Assembly (NCBI GenBank): GCA_000961595.1
Contig: LADO01000056.1
Coordinates: 1-64,000, forward strand
DNA: 64,000 nt
Direction of reading: 5' to 3'
Origin: Peptococcaceae bacterium BRH_c4b
GTDB lineage: Bacteria > Bacillota > Desulfotomaculia > Desulfotomaculales > Desulfocucumaceae
A program made the translations under genes and the position numbers. The notes under the pieces were generated by a model. That model was not told the origin of the DNA and searched no databases. It saw only the letters and a list, made by a program, of their open reading frames with translations. Within the stretch, counting starts at the first letter, position 1. Every line of letters begins with the position of its first letter. This document shows positions 19,973 to 29,391 of the stretch, in pieces.

Positions 19973-20267
19973 TCTTCATTAGCAATACTCTAAGATGCTC
20001 GAATTGTGGCGGAACATGTCAATATAGTTAAGATAGTATATAATTAAAAAAGTTAACCAATTCAGCAGGAACAGGATGAACTGTGTCGAATACCATAAAC
20101 AAGACAAATCAAGGTAATCGGCAGGTTGTAATAATCCTGCTATTTTTATGCGATGTTCTATTGTTTTGTGTAACAATTCCTCGTTTAAAAACGTCATACT
20201 TATGAGGTGTATTTTTGGGCAAGCCGGTTTGATGTGAAACATTTGTCTGGATTCAGGAGGACTTTCC
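19973..20267. promoter_or_regulatory. AT-rich intergenic region with a candidate promoter at 20016-20044
   Basis: ATGTCA (20016-20021), a 17-base spacer and TATAAT (20039-20044) form a plausible vegetative promoter for the protease gene. Nothing else certain is seen in the roughly 300 bases. TGTCGAA near 20080 resembles a Spo0A box core, but one copy is weak evidence. Confidence 0.4.
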
Positions 20268-23200
20268 TTGAGAAATAGAATAATAGTCCTGGCGGCGGCT
20301 TTAGCGATGATAGCCATCCCGGCAGTTAATCGTGATTATAATGACATACATTTATTAAATGATCGCTCCAGGGAAATAATCGGCGCTGCGGCGCTGAATG
20401 CCCCAGGTTTTATTAATACCGGGGGACTCACCGGTGAAGGACAGGTAGTGGCTATTGCCGACAGCGGATTGGACAAGGGGTCCATGGACGATATACACCC
20501 TGATTTGCAGAGCACGCCCGGCAAAAAGCCTAAAGTAATCATGCTTAAATCCTGGGCGGAACGGGAAAGGGTGGACGACTCGCTCGGCCATGGCACTCAC
20601 ATGGCGGCTGCCATTGCCGGCACAGGGGCGGCGTCAGACGGTAAATTCAAGGGGGTAGCCCCCGAAGCAAGCATATACTTCCAGGGAATATTGGATAAAG
20701 AAAACAAAATAAAGCCTCCCCTGCCAGAGAAACTTTTTCTGCCGGCTTATGCCGCAGGTGCACGGATTCATGTGGATGCCTGGGGCGGAGGGAAAAACTG
20801 TTATGGCGGAAATGCCCAGAATATTGACGCATTCGTAAATAGATACAGAGACTTTTTGGTGGTGCTCGGGGCCGGCAACAGCGGTCCCGGAGCAGGGTCA
20901 CTCACCTCTGAGGCCAACAGTAAAAACGCGCTGGTAGTTGGGGCATCCTGCAGTCCGCGCCCGGCCCTGGACCCCGAGAACACAGACACCAGCGCAACTG
21001 CGGCCTTTTCCAGCCGCGGTCCGGCGGCTGACGGCAGAATAAAGCCTGAGTTGCTGGCTCCGGGCACCTCTATAGTATCAGCAAAATCCACTGAGATTCC
21101 GGGAAACCTACCGGGCTTTCCACAATACCTGAGAATGCAGGGTACCAGCATGGCTGCGGCTGTGGCCGGGGGAGCGGCAGCTCTGACCAGAGAAATGCTG
21201 CAGAAAGATCTTTCCATAGCATCTCCTTCGGCGGCACTGCTTAAAGCAGTACTAATTAACGGGGCCAGGGCGGAAAACGGTCCGTCCAGGCAGGGATTCG
21301 GAATCATTGACTTGACCGGGACGGCCATATCTTTTGCGGAAAAAAGATTGGAGGCGGTGGACGAGGGCTCCGGCCTGCAAACGGCAATGATGAGGGAATA
21401 CAAATTTGAAGTAAAGAAAGAAGACGGGCCGTTTAAAGCTACCCTGGCCTGGAGTGATCCTGAGGCTTCCCCGGAAGCGGATCAAACGCTGATAAACAAC
21501 CTGGATCTGGAGATAATTTCCCCCAGTGGTGAGAAACTCCCAGGGAACGGTTTTTTAAAAACCGGCTCTCCGGATAGTACCAACAATGTAGAGCAGGTAT
21601 ATATAGAAGAGCCCGAAGCAGGAAATTACACCATCAGGGTATGGGCAACCTCGGTGGATAATCAGAAAAGCCCCTCCGGCCAGAAATATGCCCTGGCTTT
21701 TGGCCAATTACCGGCATCAGCGGTAATTGGTGAAGACAGTAATAAAGCAGGGCAGGACCCGTCCGCCGTAAAACTGCTGGCGAACGGAAGTACCACTGAT
21801 TCCAAAAAGGAAATCAGCCCTGGATTCAGGGAATACCTGATCAATAAAACAAAGTACATAATAGGAAACATCTGGCGGCCGCCAGGAGTGCAGGTGAGAC
21901 TTACCTCCCGGGGCAACATCTGGTTTGAGGCCGGCAGGGAGCAGAGGACGGGAGGATACTACCAGGATGTGAGTGCCGGTATTACGATCAACGGCCAGAC
22001 ATCGAAAAGCGTTGAGGAAATACCCCCCGGCGCCGTCCTGGTGGCGGTGGTGGATCCGGTTACACAGAAACTGCACAGCATCCGTGTCGATTATGAGGTG
22101 ACTAGCGGCAAGGTGTCGGGCGTTAGTGTGGCCGACAACAGCCTAAGACTTGCGGGCAACAGCAGTAATTATAAAATTTCCCCATTAGTTGCCTACTTAA
22201 ACACCTATAACATCCGGGACTCCGACCCCCTGCTGGACGCTTTCGGGCCCGTGGACGGCGCTATGCAGCCGGAAGTGCTGCCCGGCATGTCGGTTACCCT
22301 GGTAGCTAACCCCCTTACTTCTGAAGTTCAAAGTATCAAAATCAGCAGGGATGTGGTACTGGGCATGCTGATGAGTATTGACGTTGGCCGGGGGGAAATG
22401 GTACTGGACAATGGAAAAAAATACAGTATTTTTTCCGGGTCGTCAGTATATGTTGATGATATTATGTCGCAGCCGGGTGGTTTAAAGCCGGGGTACATGA
22501 TCAGTGCGGTCCTTCAGCCCGGCACGGATACAGTGCTGGGAATTACTGCCTGTACAAAGGTTTCTTATGGCCAGATAGTATTTATCAGCCGCAAGGACCA
22601 GACAATATATTTCAACGACATAAAGGACGGCTTCAAAGTATACAGGTATTCCGAAAATCTCAGGGTAAACCGCTGGAACGCCGAAGACAGTATTGAAACC
22701 TTAGGCACGGACACCTGGGCCAGGCTGGTGCTGACCCCTTTGGGGTCGGAAATAACTGCAGTCCAGGTGGCTGAAAAGGCTGAACAATTTGAAGGCAGGA
22801 TTTCCTCTATATCTGATGGAGAAGTGGCGTTCAGGGATGGGAGTAAAATACTTATCAGCCCACTGACGGGACTGGAGAAATCGGGATACCCGGTTGCAGA
22901 AAGAGATTTCCTTCCCGATGAGAAAATAGACGCCTTATCATTGTACACTTCAAAAGGGAATCATGTTATAGCCTATTTAAAAACCTTGGAAACCTATCCC
23001 GAAGATGAACCAGCTATAAAATACATAGCCCTGCCTTTAAACAAGCGGTATTTCATCGGAGGCAATACAAACGGGGATGTGGTCTATATCTGGCGCACCG
23101 GGGGAACCAGGGTGGAAATGGCGCCCGACGAAAGGGGAGACTTCACTTATTCCTTTATTCCGGCGCCGGACGAAAATGTTGTCAGGCTAGTGGCGGTAAA

Positions 23201-23813
23201 CCGCCATACCGGGGCCGTAACCGGCAGGTATATCGAAATAAATGTGGGTGCGGAAAGGAACTTTACCGATATATCGGGGCACTGGGCTGAAGACGACATA
23301 CTGAAACTTTCGGCCAAAGGCAGGGTCCTTGGGTACGGTGACGGCACCTTGCAGCCGGACAGGAAGATAACCCGGGAGGAACTGGCGGTTCTGCTTGCCA
23401 ACTGTTTCGGCTGGAGGGAAAAAGCCGGGGCGGCTGTGAAATATACCGATAAAAAGGAAATCTCTGACTGGGCGATGCCCGGGGTATACTGGTCCGGCTA
23501 CATGGGAATACTCACGCCTTATAATGATGGTTCCTTCAAGCCTTCACAAACAGTCAGCCGGGCGGAACTGGCGGTGGTTCTGGAGAAGCTGAGGCAGAAA
23601 CTAAAAATAAATACCGAAAACGCGTCAAAATCCTTTCGGGATGTTTACAGCGTACCGCCCTGGGCCAGAAGTTCCATAGAGAATATATATATGTCAGGTA
23701 TATTAAAAGGAAAGCCGGACGAAATGCTGGCCCCCTTGGAGGGCGCTACCAGAGCGGAAACGATAGTAGCGCTGGCAAGAATAATGGATGAATTTGAAAA
23801 GGGCGGGGGTTAA
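20268..23813 (+). CDS. Secreted subtilisin-family (S8) protease with three SLH domains
   Basis: 1181-residue surface protease. An N-terminal signal peptide (about residues 1-20) is followed by an S8 catalytic domain with Asp65 (IADSGLD), His108 (GHGTHMA), the oxyanion Asn204 (GAGNSG) and Ser294 (GTSMAAA). A proprotein-convertase-like beta domain follows (about 375-490). Residues about 530-970 form repeated beta-rich modules of unknown function. The C-terminus (about 999-1181) has three S-layer homology domains for non-covalent wall attachment. The TTG start at 20268 has AGGAGG seven bases upstream. Its end overlaps the convergent anti-sigma gene by 4 bases. Possible roles are surface protein processing or peptide scavenging. 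Confidence 0.9.
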   Translation: MRNRIIVLAAALAMIAIPAVNRDYNDIHLLNDRSREIIGAAALNAPGFINTGGLTGEGQVVAIADSGLDKGSMDDIHPDLQSTPGKKPKVIMLKSWAERERVDDSLGHGTHMAAAIAGTGAASDGKFKGVAPEASIYFQGILDKENKIKPPLPEKLFLPAYAAGARIHVDAWGGGKNCYGGNAQNIDAFVNRYRDFLVVLGAGNSGPGAGSLTSEANSKNALVVGASCSPRPALDPENTDTSATAAFSSRGPAADGRIKPELLAPGTSIVSAKSTEIPGNLPGFPQYLRMQGTSMAAAVAGGAAALTREMLQKDLSIASPSAALLKAVLINGARAENGPSRQGFGIIDLTGTAISFAEKRLEAVDEGSGLQTAMMREYKFEVKKEDGPFKATLAWSDPEASPEADQTLINNLDLEIISPSGEKLPGNGFLKTGSPDSTNNVEQVYIEEPEAGNYTIRVWATSVDNQKSPSGQKYALAFGQLPASAVIGEDSNKAGQDPSAVKLLANGSTTDSKKEISPGFREYLINKTKYIIGNIWRPPGVQVRLTSRGNIWFEAGREQRTGGYYQDVSAGITINGQTSKSVEEIPPGAVLVAVVDPVTQKLHSIRVDYEVTSGKVSGVSVADNSLRLAGNSSNYKISPLVAYLNTYNIRDSDPLLDAFGPVDGAMQPEVLPGMSVTLVANPLTSEVQSIKISRDVVLGMLMSIDVGRGEMVLDNGKKYSIFSGSSVYVDDIMSQPGGLKPGYMISAVLQPGTDTVLGITACTKVSYGQIVFISRKDQTIYFNDIKDGFKVYRYSENLRVNRWNAEDSIETLGTDTWARLVLTPLGSEITAVQVAEKAEQFEGRISSISDGEVAFRDGSKILISPLTGLEKSGYPVAERDFLPDEKIDALSLYTSKGNHVIAYLKTLETYPEDEPAIKYIALPLNKRYFIGGNTNGDVVYIWRTGGTRVEMAPDERGDFTYSFIPAPDENVVRLVAVNRHTGAVTGRYIEINVGAERNFTDISGHWAEDDILKLSAKGRVLGYGDGTLQPDRKITREELAVLLANCFGWREKAGAAVKYTDKKEISDWAMPGVYWSGYMGILTPYNDGSFKPSQTVSRAELAVVLEKLRQKLKINTENASKSFRDVYSVPPWARSSIENIYMSGILKGKPDEMLAPLEGATRAETIVALARIMDEFEKGGG

Positions 23814-24853
23814 TTCCCCTGGCCTTTTTCTATCCACAGTATTATTGTGTGTTTTGTAGCCTGTTCCCGCCATTCCTGCAGCTGTTTGCTCAGGCTGTCA
23901 AACTCCGTCCGGTAGGATGCGTTTTCTGCCTGGGAGTTGTTTATCAGCGACGCCAGCTCTTGCTGCCTGGCCAAAGCTTCTTTATACCTGTAGGTTATAT
24001 CCTTGGCCTCATCTGATTTGTCTATTACCGGGCCTAAAGACATGAAGTAATTCATTAGTTCAGCGCTTGCGGCTTCCGGTACTGTTATCGATGTTATGCT
24101 AACTTCCTTGCCACCAGTATTCTGAGCGGATATTATCTGTGATACCGCACCGCTCCCGTTCGTTTTAGCGGCAGCCTTGGCGATGGTTCCTATGGGGTCA
24201 TCGGAGGACAGTTTCAATAATGTGCTTTTAATTGTAATCTCATTGTCAAAGAGGGCAAATTCCTGAGCAACTACAACCCGCGCCTCTGCTTTGGGATTGT
24301 CCGGCGCTGCGGTTTCCGGCACTGCAGCATCTGGTGCTACAGCATCGCTTTTACTGTCATTCGCTGTGTCGGGCCTATTGTTCGCCGACGTATTTAAATG
24401 CGCCTCCGGCTCAGCATGCTTTTTATTGTTGTCGACCACGGCAGTTTGGGCAGTCCGGTTGCTTTTCATTACTATGTTATTGTTCTTTTTCTCCGGCATG
24501 AAATTATTGGCGATGCCTACTGATCCTGCGAATAATATAACCGCTGCTGCTGCAGCAATGGTCTTGTGCCAGGTTTTGATGAAGCCGTATTTCTCCGGTT
24601 TTTGCTCCGTTATTATCCTGTTCATTAGCTGTGCTGCAAAGCCTGGCGGGGGATCAGCCGAATACGTGAAGCCTTGAAGCGAATGCGATATGGACTGCCA
24701 GGATTCCAGCTCTGTTTTACAAGGGGGGCAGCTTTGTATATGTTTCTCCAGTATATTTGCATCTTCGGGGGTAATTTCACCGTCCAGCCAGGGTGAAAAT
24801 AGCTCCCTGACTTCAAAGCAGCTTTTATTTCCGACGGTGTATTTTCTTGTCAT
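23810..24853 (-). CDS. Anti-sigma factor with zinc-finger and DUF4349-like domain
   Basis: 347 residues. The N-terminal cytoplasmic part has the ZAS motif His38-x3-Cys42-x2-Cys45 (EKHIQSCPPC) of anti-sigma factors. One membrane helix follows (about residues 87-108), then a low-complexity Asn/Ala/Asp-rich linker and an extracellular domain (about 195-345) with a coiled coil that resembles DUF4349. It overlaps the sigma gene by 4 bases, so the two are co-translated. It presumably holds the ECF sigma factor at the membrane and releases it on a surface signal. Confidence 0.85.
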   Translation of the reverse strand: MTRKYTVGNKSCFEVRELFSPWLDGEITPEDANILEKHIQSCPPCKTELESWQSISHSLQGFTYSADPPPGFAAQLMNRIITEQKPEKYGFIKTWHKTIAAAAAVILFAGSVGIANNFMPEKKNNNIVMKSNRTAQTAVVDNNKKHAEPEAHLNTSANNRPDTANDSKSDAVAPDAAVPETAAPDNPKAEARVVVAQEFALFDNEITIKSTLLKLSSDDPIGTIAKAAAKTNGSGAVSQIISAQNTGGKEVSITSITVPEAASAELMNYFMSLGPVIDKSDEAKDITYRYKEALARQQELASLINNSQAENASYRTEFDSLSKQLQEWREQATKHTIILWIEKGQGN

Positions 24854-25473
24854 ATTTCCCCCCCCTTTCCGGCTTTTGTCATACCTGTCTGGAGTATCTT
24901 TTCCTTAAGCGCCTGCCTGGCCCGGTTCATTCTGGATTTCACCGTGCCCAGTGAACTCTGGGTAATTTGGGCTATTTCCTCGTAGGAATAGCCTTCAATT
25001 TCGCGCAGCACCAATACCGCTTTGTGCTCCGGGGAGAGACTGTCAAGCGCCTGCTTAATGACATTCCTGTCTTCCTTTTCCTCTATCTCTTGTGAAGGGT
25101 CGGCGCTTTCGTCCAGTATCTCCCGGTTAATCTCACCTGTGTCCGTCTTTACCGGGTCATCGATATAGAATATAGTAACCTTTGAATTCTTTTTTTTGTA
25201 ATTGAGGTACATATTTACGGTTATCCTGTGCAGCCAGGTACCGAAATCAGCCTCCAGGCGAAATCCCTTTAAGGATCTAAAAGACTTTAAAAAAACTTCC
25301 TGTGCCAAATCCTCCGCGTCGCTCCGGTTGCCGGTAAGTTTCAGGCAGAGTCCTAAAACTTTGCTCTGGTATATATTTACCAGACTGCCGAAGGAATCTA
25401 CCTCGCCTCTTTGAGAACGCATTATCAACTCTACTATATTATTACTCATAATTCTATTCGATATCTGATCCAA
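24850..25473 (-). CDS. ECF-type RNA polymerase sigma factor
   Basis: About 207 residues. Region 2 is visible in NRSDAEDLAQEVFLKSF, and region 4 in LSPEHKAVLVLREIEGYSYEEIAQI plus LGTVKSRMNRARQAL. Between them lies an acidic linker. I choose TTG at 25473, 8 bases after GGAGGAG; a GTG at 25482 abuts that site and an internal ATG at 25449 has none. The anti-sigma gene follows directly. A promoter of its own type lies upstream at 25517-25545, suggesting autoregulation. Confidence 0.93.
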   Translation of the reverse strand: MDQISNRIMSNNIVELIMRSQRGEVDSFGSLVNIYQSKVLGLCLKLTGNRSDAEDLAQEVFLKSFRSLKGFRLEADFGTWLHRITVNMYLNYKKKNSKVTIFYIDDPVKTDTGEINREILDESADPSQEIEEKEDRNVIKQALDSLSPEHKAVLVLREIEGYSYEEIAQITQSSLGTVKSRMNRARQALKEKILQTGMTKAGKGGEI

Positions 25474-25516
25474 AGGATTCACTCCTCCGGAGCCGGCTTA
25501 TTCCCGCCGACACCGT

Positions 25517-25545
25517 TTAGACAAAAATAATACCGTGAAAGTTCC
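25517..25545 (-). promoter_or_regulatory. ECF-type promoter of the sigma/anti-sigma operon
   Basis: Read on the minus strand: GGAACTTT (-35, 25545-25538), then GTCTAA (-10, 25522-25517), with 18 bases between GGAAC and GTCTAA. This is the classical ECF layout. Transcription would begin about 35 bases before the TTG start. Confidence 0.72.
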
Positions 25546-25587
25546 ACCAGAGGAAACCCCACGGACTAATATTTTATATATATTTCG

Positions 25588-25616
25588 TTGTAAAAGTTTT
25601 TTCTCCTTCGTATATT
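25588..25616 (+). promoter_or_regulatory. Possible vegetative promoter upstream of the surface protein gene
   Basis: TTGTAA, 17-base spacer, TATATT. This is a fair sigma-A match that would give a leader of about 330 bases. It is an alternative or second promoter to the ECF-type one at 25660. Confidence 0.4.
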
Positions 25617-25659
25617 TTGTTGTTAATAAATAGTAAGTTGAAAAATTTTTATAAACCAT

Positions 25660-25688
25660 GGAACCTTAAACCTGTTCCGGTTGTCTAA
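25660..25688 (+). promoter_or_regulatory. ECF-type promoter of the surface protein gene
   Basis: GGAAC (25660-25664), 18 bases, GTCTAA (25683-25688), the same elements and spacing as the promoter of the divergent sigma operon. It would give an mRNA leader of about 255 bases. Confidence 0.68.
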
Positions 25689-25695
25689 CTGAACA

Positions 25696-25952
25696 GGTAA
25701 AACGCAGAAAGATTCCCAGTGCAGGAAGGATATTGGCCTCTGGTGTAGAATTCACCACCTTGGCTATATCCAACCAATCAGTTGGACGGCCCGGCTAAAC
25801 GTATCCCAGACGCAGCACCAATCGCGGCCAAAACTCAGCAAATATTGTGAGATCTTGAAGGGGAGGGATGGTTAAACCGCCGGCGGCATACCGGATAAGC
25901 GGTACCCGTGGCAAAAAGCAAATTTTATTTAACTAATAAGGAGGAAAAATTC
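25696..25952 (+). other. Long 5' leader of the surface protein mRNA
   Basis: No gene is seen in this stretch. Small hairpins are possible (ACCG-GATAAG-CGGT near 25892, GCCGCCGGCGGC near 25879). It does not match a riboswitch I know. Long leaders that stabilise mRNA are known for S-layer genes. Confidence 0.4.
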
Positions 25953-28139
25953 TTGAAAAGAAGCAGAAAATTACTTTCTATTCTTCTGACACTATCTCTG
26001 TTGGCAGCCATGTTAGTTCCCATGGCTGTACCGGCTGCAGCGGCTTCTGATGATTCCGCGGCTCAGAATGTTCCAAGTGTTACCTCAGGCGACAACAAGG
26101 TTCTCGGCACCCTGCAACTGAAAGAAAGCGAAACAACTGTCGGCGCGTTGGCTAACAATGCCCAAATTACAATTAACCTGCCGGATGGCGTTGAATTCAG
26201 CACCGCGCCAACAGCAGGAACCATTGCTAACTATATTAATACCACCGTTGGTGGTGCCGGTGGTCTTACATCGACTGCAACTCCCCTCTTCGGAACCGAC
26301 CCCGCTATTGCTGGAAACCGCATTACGGCTGTGGCATTTGTTTCAGGTAGCGTCAAGCACCTGACAGTACAAGTTACCACCGGCGGCACAGGAACCTACG
26401 CCTGGTTGGTATTCTACTTTGGCGCCGTTGCCGGCGGTACAGTTGACATTACCAGCGGCACCTCAGGCGATATCCTGGCGGAAGTTGAGAATACTTCCGG
26501 CGGTTTCGTTAATGCTAAACACATCATTGGTACCACAGCTTCTGGCGGTGGAACTGTTTCAGCCTTAAGCACACCTGACGTACAGGCTGACTCAACCACT
26601 GCGCTGGGACAAATTAAGATTAAAGAAACCGGAGCAGGTGCTCTTACTACTACTGACGGCAACATTAAAATTAAACTGCCGAAAGATTGCGATTGGAACG
26701 TTCCTGGTACAGCTATTGCGTCTTTACCGACCGGCATGGTCGTTGGTGCGTTGACCGGTAACGGAACCCGCACCCTGGAATTCCCGATAACCACCGCATC
26801 TACTACGGCAGGCAGCATCATTATTACTACCAACGTCGATATCGGTGCGGATGTTGAAGCTGGTGACCTGAAAGTCACAGTTAGCGGCAACAAGTTAACA
26901 ACAACCGAAATAACCATAGGTGAAGTCGGCGACTTAACACTGGACGCCGAGGTTGAAGGCGATGTGCCTACCGTTATAGCCGGACAGGCAGACCAGGATA
27001 TTGCTGACTTTACCATCAAAGAAGGTGCGGCAGGTTCATTGGTCGCGGGCCGTACAATTAACGCTGAACTTCCCAACAATGTTGACTGGAACACAGTTCC
27101 CGGCGGCGACGGCCTGACCGTAACCGACACCACAGCTGGCGATGAAAAAGTAAGGTTTACCATTGCTGCAGCAACAGCAGCCCGTACAGATTTCGAGCAG
27201 GAGAACATGACCATTGATGTTCCTGAAAACTTCGTGGGAGATGTTGAAATTGAACTGTCCGGTACTGCAGGGTTAGAGAAAAAGATTGTCGTTGCCAAAG
27301 CCATTGCACCTGTCAAGGCTGAGTCAACTCCTGTGGACCTTAAGCTCGGTACTTTAAGTCAAGCAGCCGGTGATATTATTATCACGGAAAATGCGGCTGG
27401 TGCGTTAATGGATGCAGCAGGAAACGAAACACTACAATTAAGCTGCCCGAATGGGATTTCCTTTGCTAAGCTTCCCACGATAGAAGTAACCTCTGGTGAT
27501 CTTGAGCTTGATGCCGATACTCTTGACTTCGTAGCAGGTACCGATAAGGCCGATGTTTGCATCGATGTGGATAATTCAAGTGATGTAGCATCTACCATTA
27601 AAGTTTCCGGTATAGTGTACAATATTGACCGTACAGTGCCGGAAGGACCAATTTCTTTGAATATCGGCGGAGATGGGCTGGATGCAGTAGGCGCTGTTAG
27701 CGATGAAGTTGTCTCAGTAAATAACGCCAACCTGATAACCTCTATTAATCTGGGTGACAAAGCTTCTGCTTCCTTTGTAATCGGTTCAGCTACTTATAAT
27801 GCTAATGGCGTAGAAAAGACCATGGATGTTGCTCCGTATGTAAAAGACGGTCGTACCTTCCTGCCTGTTCGTTATGTAGCGGATGCGCTTGGCGTAACAG
27901 AAGATAACATTATTTGGGATGCGAATGCCCAAACTGTAACACTTCTTAAGGGCGATAAAGTTGCACAAATGAAAATTGGCAGCAAAGCACTGTTGGTAAA
28001 CGGCGTTACTATAAACATGGATGTCGCTGCTGAACTGAACAGTGGACGTACAATGTTACCCTTCCGCTTCATCGCTCAGGCACTGGGAGCGACAGTAGGT
28101 TGGGATGAAGCAACACAAACAGTGAGCATGGATCTGTAG
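25953..28139 (+). CDS. Secreted surface protein with C-terminal copper-amine-oxidase-N-like domain
   Basis: About 728 residues. A signal peptide (KLLSILLTLSLLAAMLVPMA, ending near AAAA) leads a long Thr/Ala/Gly/Asp-rich body of four or five beta-rich modules, each with an IKExxAGxL...LP pattern (about residues 40-600). The end (about 613-728) has two half-repeats, GRTFLPVRYVADALGV and GRTMLPFRFIAQALGA, of the Cu_amine_oxidN1 type; in Clostridia this domain serves as a surface module and not as an oxidase. Very low Cys, no SLH domain. Start TTG 25953 follows AAGGAGG. It is probably an abundant S-layer-like protein under ECF sigma control. Confidence 0.85.
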   Translation: MKRSRKLLSILLTLSLLAAMLVPMAVPAAAASDDSAAQNVPSVTSGDNKVLGTLQLKESETTVGALANNAQITINLPDGVEFSTAPTAGTIANYINTTVGGAGGLTSTATPLFGTDPAIAGNRITAVAFVSGSVKHLTVQVTTGGTGTYAWLVFYFGAVAGGTVDITSGTSGDILAEVENTSGGFVNAKHIIGTTASGGGTVSALSTPDVQADSTTALGQIKIKETGAGALTTTDGNIKIKLPKDCDWNVPGTAIASLPTGMVVGALTGNGTRTLEFPITTASTTAGSIIITTNVDIGADVEAGDLKVTVSGNKLTTTEITIGEVGDLTLDAEVEGDVPTVIAGQADQDIADFTIKEGAAGSLVAGRTINAELPNNVDWNTVPGGDGLTVTDTTAGDEKVRFTIAAATAARTDFEQENMTIDVPENFVGDVEIELSGTAGLEKKIVVAKAIAPVKAESTPVDLKLGTLSQAAGDIIITENAAGALMDAAGNETLQLSCPNGISFAKLPTIEVTSGDLELDADTLDFVAGTDKADVCIDVDNSSDVASTIKVSGIVYNIDRTVPEGPISLNIGGDGLDAVGAVSDEVVSVNNANLITSINLGDKASASFVIGSATYNANGVEKTMDVAPYVKDGRTFLPVRYVADALGVTEDNIIWDANAQTVTLLKGDKVAQMKIGSKALLVNGVTINMDVAAELNSGRTMLPFRFIAQALGATVGWDEATQTVSMDL

Positions 28140-28152
28140 TATTACCTCTTGA

Positions 28153-28181
28153 AGAGACCTCCCCTATGGGAGGTCTCTTTT
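28153..28181 (+). terminator. Terminator of the surface protein gene
   Basis: Perfect 11-bp stem AGAGACCTCCC/GGGAGGTCTCT with loop CTAT, followed by TTTATT. Confidence 0.9.
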
Positions 28182-28226: not shown

Positions 28227-28275
28227 TTAAATATGTTAAATAATTAACCAACTCAAATGATTGGGAGTGGGGGCC

Positions 28276-29391
28276 TTGAGGAAACCTTTTATCTATATTA
28301 TTTCTTTATTTTTAATTGTTTGTTTCATGAATTCGTCAGCTCTGGCTGACGAGCAGAATACTGCAAGGTTTACTCTAAACGAGGTTATTACAAAGGTTTT
28401 AGAAAACAGTAAAGATGTTAAAAAGGCAAAGCTCGCAATAGATAAGGCTGAAGAACAGCGTGATAATAATGCAGATTTAGTATCCTATGTACCGACAACA
28501 GGTTCTAACTCGCCAGAGGAGGAACATACATGGTATAATTTGTTATCTTCTGATATGACATGGGAATTGAGTAAAAAATCATATGCTGCAGAAGAGGATA
28601 AGCAGGTTTTAAATGCCTGTAAAATGTATTGGGATGTTCAGAATGCACTGGAAAAATTAAACGCTAAAAAGTTGGGTCTTTCATATTCAAAACTATATTT
28701 ACAACGCGTTCAGGCAATGAACAGACTTGGTATGATTCCATCGGATGTCTCGCAAGGGACTTCGCCGCAGCAGGCTATAACGGATGCAGAAAGGCTTGTA
28801 GAAAAAGCGGAGTCGGATTTAACTGCATCGGAAAATGAGGTAAATTCTGCTTATGACGCTTTGAACCAGGCCATTGGTTTTTCGGTTGAGGAACGGCCGC
28901 TACTAATCGATGAAATTAAATTTGAACCTCTTGAAATAGATAATTTAGAAGTAGAAGTCCAAAGGGCTATTGAATTAAACCCAAACATATGGCAGTTGGA
29001 CGAAAGCGTTAAGCTTGCCAAATACTCATATGATATGTTGTATGCCTCTGGGATATATACACCTTATAAAATTAGGCAAATAAATAAAAATGAGGCTGAA
29101 CTTAATTCTGCAACTGCTAAGGATGCCGCTCGATTGGCTACTCGTGCGCTATATTATGCAGTAATAAATTTGGAAGACGGCTATAATGCAGCTGATAAGT
29201 CAGTAACTGGGGCGGCTGAGTCTCTAAGGGTATCACAGTTATTATATGATCTGGGCATGATAACTCGTGAGCAGCTTTTGAATAAAGAATCATTATTGGC
29301 AGAAGCAAAACTGGCTAGATTAAATATTGTTGCAGAACACTCCTATATGAAATTGGCATTTCAAAAACCGTGGGCTGTATCTGCTAACTAA
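28276..29391 (+). CDS. Secreted TolC-family-like coiled-coil protein
   Basis: About 371 residues, with a signal peptide cut near SSALA-DE. The mature part is almost wholly helical, with two related halves. Each half begins with a TolC-like opening (FTLNEVITKVLENSKDVKKAKLAID; then VEVQRAIELNPNIWQLDESVKLAK) and ends with an LGMI turn (NRLGMIPSD, DLGMITREQLLNKES). This is the repeat plan of outer membrane efflux proteins, but no strong beta-barrel segments are seen, and the organism looks monoderm. Start TTG 28276 lies behind GGGAGTGGGGG. An envelope-spanning or wall-associated role is inference. Confidence 0.75.
   Translation: MRKPFIYIISLFLIVCFMNSSALADEQNTARFTLNEVITKVLENSKDVKKAKLAIDKAEEQRDNNADLVSYVPTTGSNSPEEEHTWYNLLSSDMTWELSKKSYAAEEDKQVLNACKMYWDVQNALEKLNAKKLGLSYSKLYLQRVQAMNRLGMIPSDVSQGTSPQQAITDAERLVEKAESDLTASENEVNSAYDALNQAIGFSVEERPLLIDEIKFEPLEIDNLEVEVQRAIELNPNIWQLDESVKLAKYSYDMLYASGIYTPYKIRQINKNEAELNSATAKDAARLATRALYYAVINLEDGYNAADKSVTGAAESLRVSQLLYDLGMITREQLLNKESLLAEAKLARLNIVAEHSYMKLAFQKPWAVSAN

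Follow-up and report, generated by a model that had tools for sequence, protein, structure and literature searches.

Two sigma/anti-sigma systems of the cell envelope serve here as points of comparison, the RpoE (sigma-E)/RseA system of Escherichia coli, with promoters of the form GGAACTT-N-TCTAA, and the SigW/RsiW system of Bacillus subtilis, whose promoters read TGAAAC...CGTA. Among related anaerobes, T. tengcongensis has the ECF factor Tt-RpoE1, which is autoregulated and has its anti-sigma gene downstream; the available portions of the report describe no surface-protein target for it (PMC3397946). A protein resembling the putative target discussed below is Swol_0133 of Syntrophomonas wolfei, a 78 kDa protein whose sole recognised domain is a C-terminal Cu amine oxidase N-type domain; no other protein of the membrane fraction is as abundant, and its authors predict it to be the S-layer protein (PMC3582634). 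Surface proteomics of Desulfotomaculum reducens has reported the OEP-family protein Dred_3141 and the PF07833 protein Dred_3143, which have neighbouring locus numbers (PMC4137172).

S-layer-type proteins can be among the most plentiful in the cells that produce them, and, a few models apart, little is known about how their synthesis is adjusted to growth and to the condition of the envelope. We describe here a locus of Peptococcaceae bacterium BRH_c4b, contained in a stretch of 64,000 nucleotides (contig LADO01000056.1, hereafter the window), in which a probable ECF sigma factor module faces the gene of a large secreted protein. Within the literature open to searching, we found no earlier description of this circuit.

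A divergent pair of predicted ECF promoters

The initial annotation had pointed to GGAAC-N18-GTCTAA, once per strand and correctly placed for each of the two divergent genes, with identical elements and spacing. Both matches are exact and they are the only two in the window: one on the minus strand at 25517-25545 (GGAACTTTCACGGTATTATTTTTGTCTAA), 5' of the sigma gene, and one on the plus strand at 25660-25688 (GGAACCTTAAACCTGTTCCGGTTGTCTAA), 5' of the secreted-protein gene. In the promoter of the sigma/anti-sigma operon, the -35 element GGAACTTT lies at 25538-25545 and the -10 element GTCTAA at 25517-25522; in promoter P1 of the surface-protein gene, GGAACCTT lies at 25660-25667 and GTCTAA at 25683-25688. 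The two sites have GGAAC, N18 and GTCTAA in common but differ in the full -35 element. Relatives nearly always carry GGAACTTT at both the sigma-gene and the surface-gene promoter, where the P1 consensus is GGAACTTTt...TGTCTAActaa.caggt, and the -35 of P1 in the window is off consensus.

That such a pair is very unlikely to arise by chance was confirmed, with 0.02 matches expected per window from shuffles, no shuffle containing two, and a mean of 0.01 in the shuffled control of the relatives. A search of the whole assembly (3,624,575 bases, 66 contigs) returned these same two sites only, both at this locus, against one match to the backwards control in the 3.62-Mb genome. Matches with one mismatch allowed are background (35 in the genome versus 54 in the control). 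An 8-bp inverted repeat around the -10 of P1, ACCTGTTC/GAACAGGT, was considered as an operator and set aside, being absent from the relatives' promoters inspected.

Over its full length of 29 bases, including the spacer, the sigma promoter of the window exactly matches those of two relatives of the same family (L141 and L142). The sigma proteins of the three are only about 65% identical despite this, and spacers vary elsewhere in the order.

Sigma factor and anti-sigma factor

The sigma gene (24850..25482, minus strand) encodes a protein of about 200 amino acids with Sigma70_r2 (34-101), Sigma70_r4_2 (141-192) and nothing between, the architecture of an ECF (group IV) factor; comparison with relatives favours TTG 25473 as its start. 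Its nearest models are RpoE and SigW, both below the equivalog cut-offs. The best NCBIfam profile, RpoE equivalog TIGR02939, scores 137.9 bits against a curated cut-off of 236.15, and SigW equivalogs TIGR02948 and NF007223 score 118.3 and 127.3 bits against 243.1 and 209. The nearest solved chain is that of SigW (5wuq). An ECF-type promoter upstream of the sigma gene, kept in relatives, is the arrangement of an autoregulated ECF operon.

The adjacent gene (23810..24853, minus strand) encodes a zf-HC2 protein with the features of a class I (zinc-finger) anti-sigma factor, namely an H-x3-C-x2-C motif, the neighbouring sigma gene and one membrane helix. Across 33 aligned anti-sigma factors, H38, C42 and C45, the putative zinc ligands, do not vary. 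In the structural model, residues 96-112 form a helix that looks like the membrane segment; a disordered linker and a confidently modelled C-terminal domain (207-343) follow. This outer domain is DUF4349-like; the match is weak here and above the Pfam cut-off in three of five relatives. A fold search with the model found no relative.

The surface protein and its neighbourhood

The large secreted S-layer-like protein is encoded at 25953..28139 on the plus strand (728 amino acids). The listed reading frame begins at GTG 25908, and a good Shine-Dalgarno sequence, AAGGAGG at 25938-25944, favours TTG 25953. P1 lies about 290 nt before this start, a spacing kept in many relatives. The protein has a hydrophobic, signal-like N-terminus and, as its sole recognised domain, a C-terminal Cu_amine_oxidN1; no SLH or other known wall-anchoring domain was recognised in it. 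Its model is a chain of beta domains, with which a fold search returned only multi-domain beta proteins at low TM-scores. Likened by description, it resembles Swol_0133 in size and in its only recognised, C-terminal domain, and by this analogy it may be a dominant, abundant protein that forms an S-layer.

The gene is followed by a probable terminator read from the sequence (28152..28179, plus strand), a 12-bp inverted repeat and then TTT, which a terminator scan did not report because its T-run is short. The next gene (28261..29391, plus strand; Pfam OEP) encodes a TolC/OEP-like protein, a conserved neighbour that is not necessarily on the same transcript. A gene of the TolC/OEP family comes after the surface-protein gene in most relatives, which is odd for organisms usually described as single-membrane. 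On the other side of the module, the gene of a subtilase with SLH domains (20268-23813) converges on the anti-sigma gene and is preceded, at a distance of about 200 bp, by a sigma-H-type promoter (20065-20092); a similar gene adjoins the module in some relatives.

Conservation of the wiring

Related sigma genes were gathered from 100 genomes and from genome contigs. A recurrent order was observed across the order, with the anti-sigma and sigma genes pointing away from a large secreted Cu_amine_oxidN1 protein gene that is followed by an OEP-like one, and most of the related sigma genes examined have GGAACTTT(T)-N-GTCT upstream in almost the same position. GGAAC-N17/18-GTCTA precedes 35 of 41 sigma genes and, among the surface genes, 32 of 33, all within the same order, against a Markov-shuffled mean of 0.01; counted by genera, it is present in 25/30 for the sigma gene and 20/21 for the surface gene. 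Five to six related sigma genes are without the exact motif, and the sole surface gene scored as lacking it (L240) has its site just past the 450-nt limit. Absence of the motif upstream of related sigma genes would have spoken against the promoter assignment, and it is instead present in close and distant relatives. In a genome of the same genus (G001), both promoters are present though the sigma factor is only 48% identical. The spacers between the promoter elements differ between most genera.

Surface genes that have been displaced from the module keep the promoter, whether they lie 1.8 kb away behind two other genes (L062/L141), at 1.0 kb (L157), 4.3 kb (L158) or roughly 10 kb (G054, G028), or on another contig (G007). 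The ECF promoter is thus tied to the target gene and not merely to the genomic place.

The strict pattern GGAACTTT-N14-TGTCTAA has matches in 65 of the 113 genomes of the class sample, all in the same order and usually with one to three sites per matching genome; its backwards control has none in all 113. Twenty strict sites outside the loci already studied were taken for a target check. At ten of them, the gene found 194-458 nt downstream encodes a secreted protein that shares the C-terminal domain of the surface protein. Of the others, two precede genes of different secreted proteins (L312, L316), one a related sigma gene (L315) and one the gene of a short protein (L307); six had no open reading frame by the criteria used. 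The surface gene can thus often be located from the DNA pattern alone. The motif also stands before additional secreted proteins in a few relatives, so the regulon is not always limited to one target.

Several other occurrences deserve mention. Below the same ECF promoter, L195, L312 and L316 encode another family of secreted proteins (814-978 amino acids) without the Cu_amine_oxidN1 C-terminus. One genome (G104) has 14 strict ECF sites, with back-to-back pairs on several contigs, reflecting either paralogy of the module or an assembly of mixed origin. Sites of a second class, GGAACTTT-N-CGTCT, are found in relatives and in the genome of the window (L197, G000:C17:78189; L198, G000:C17:109043; L199, G000:C19:62626), and one such site lies 65 bp before an SLH-protein gene. 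This class is probably the regulon of another ECF factor, told apart by the base before GTC.

In many genera the sigma-gene promoter is flanked by arms that can pair and whose sequence differs between genera (L240, L065, L146, L160, L231, L241 and others). Pairing was better than in shuffled arms (p<0.05) at 10/32 sigma-gene loci and 1/29 surface-gene promoters, and it weakened when arms were exchanged between loci (8/20,000 permutations as good), in statistics that do not fully control for relatedness and base composition. The window is weak in this respect (25480-25575, z -1.25). In read-through RNA from further upstream the arms would make a hairpin near the sigma start, which the ECF transcript cannot form. 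In Peptococcaceae bacterium BRH_c4a, an Rfam TwoAYGGAY RNA (48.5 bits) is found upstream of the module (L061, 278-436).

A probable second promoter of the surface gene

The initial annotation had overlooked a second promoter of the surface-protein gene, P2, at 25725..25752 on the plus strand. It has the form GAAGGATAT-N11-GTAGAATT, in full GAAGGATAT-TGGCCTCTGGT-GTAGAATT, and lies 37 bp downstream of the ECF -10. Such elements are present in 11-12 of 23 leaders (control 0.1-0.3), and the genome of the window itself has 16 of them against 0 in the control. In most relatives, spoVG has a similar element (AAGGAATTT...GGAGAAT or GAGAAA) roughly 140 nt upstream of its conserved coding motif. Since this gene is a standard target of sigma-H in B. 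subtilis, P2 most likely belongs to the sigma-H promoters, and it fits their consensus, RnAGGAwWW-N11/12-RnnGAATww, except at the last w. In the upstream stretches of spoIIAA inspected as a further check, no matching element was seen. Several genomes are without P2, many of them having two ECF promoters in tandem.

The conserved leader block GCAGGA...TGTAGAAT was considered as an RNA element and rejected: it is also present at other places in these genomes, where its spacing shows a preference, it matches the element upstream of spoVG, the fold of the leader is no better than that of shuffled sequences (z -0.58) and nothing was found there in Rfam. Most leaders also contain a conserved G-rich box followed by ATG (GGGGAGGGATG at 25860-25870 in the window, GGGGGGATG in most relatives), located 30-110 nt before the start of the surface gene.

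Proposed circuit and alternative explanations

Altogether, the locus is very probably an autoregulated ECF sigma/anti-sigma module whose regulon consists essentially of itself and one large S-layer-like surface protein. This reading is built on the paired promoters and their conservation, the identity of the target, the small number of sites, the gene architecture and the conserved zinc-finger residues, all established computationally. Under the proposed mechanism, the membrane-anchored zinc-finger anti-sigma factor would hold the sigma factor until an envelope cue releases it; the freed sigma factor, with RNA polymerase, would then start at GGAACTTTT-N-TGTCTAA promoters facing both ways, one raising the sigma and anti-sigma factors and the other the surface protein. 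The neighbouring sigma factor would transcribe from both sites and be inhibited by its partner, and the membrane-anchored zinc-finger character of that partner is what points to an envelope cue. The initial annotation had predicted that the sigma factor controls itself, its anti-sigma factor and one dominant surface protein; the wiring is supported by promoter conservation, whereas "dominant" goes by analogy and the surface gene turned out to have a second promoter. Given that sigma-H-type promoter, the surface gene here probably has two inputs, the activity of the ECF factor adding to growth-phase expression through P2.

The surface gene might then be driven mainly by the sigma-H-type (or a housekeeping) promoter, with the ECF promoter as a minor, stress-induced booster. 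We regard this as a real possibility, though not the favoured one. P2 is closer to the gene and belongs to a strongly enriched class of motifs, and the ECF -35 is here off consensus; however, P1 is found at 32/33 surface genes and P2 in only about half of the leaders, and genomes without P2 often carry tandem ECF promoters. A leading role of sigma-H and the ECF module can both be true.

That an ECF factor other than the adjacent one reads both promoters appears improbable. The genome does contain more sigma-like matches (25 first-look candidates) and the second class of sites, GGAACTTT-N-CGTCT, shares the -35, but in nearly every genome the TGTCTAA class accompanies this sigma gene and its surface partner, sites of the CGTCT class precede other genes, and autoregulation is usual for ECF factors. 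Chance, or a by-product of shared intergenic ancestry, we consider negligible as an explanation of the matches: the motif was read from the sequence after the fact and its one-mismatch versions are at background, but it recurs in about 25 genera at the sigma gene and 20 at the surface gene (control 0.01), control matches number 0 in 113 genomes, spacers differ between most genera and surface genes that lie elsewhere in the genome also have the site.

Returning to the autoregulated module, the outer, DUF4349-like domain of the anti-sigma factor could conceivably monitor the S-layer itself, so that loss of or damage to the coat would free the sigma factor and lead to more coat protein. Such a homeostat is a speculative extension; if true, an order of anaerobes would have conserved an ECF circuit with almost only one purpose.

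Comparison with known systems

The module would provide a regulator with an almost single structural target that sequence makes recognisable throughout an order, and a second input, linked to growth phase, is predicted. In uncultured relatives, looking below GGAACTTT-N14-TGTCTAA may reveal what is likely their main surface protein.

With RpoE/RseA of E. coli, the locus shares the promoter type GGAACTT...GTCTAA, autoregulation and a membrane-anchored anti-sigma factor. It differs in occurring in a Gram-positive-type lineage, in an outer anti-sigma domain unrelated to that of RseA and in a regulon of one to few sites, whereas RpoE has a broad stress regulon. SigW/RsiW of B. subtilis has in common with it the nearest solved chain, a zinc-finger anti-sigma factor with one membrane helix and the envelope setting; SigW has dozens of targets, in contrast to the one to three strict sites of the module in most matching genomes. 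The Tt-RpoE1 promoter, given as tGTTAC-N16-CGTC in the available portions of the report, is of another recognition class than the motif of the window (PMC3397946). The module thus works like the RpoE and SigW systems while being a member of neither equivalog family, and the difference is one of scope, which is centred here on one structural protein.
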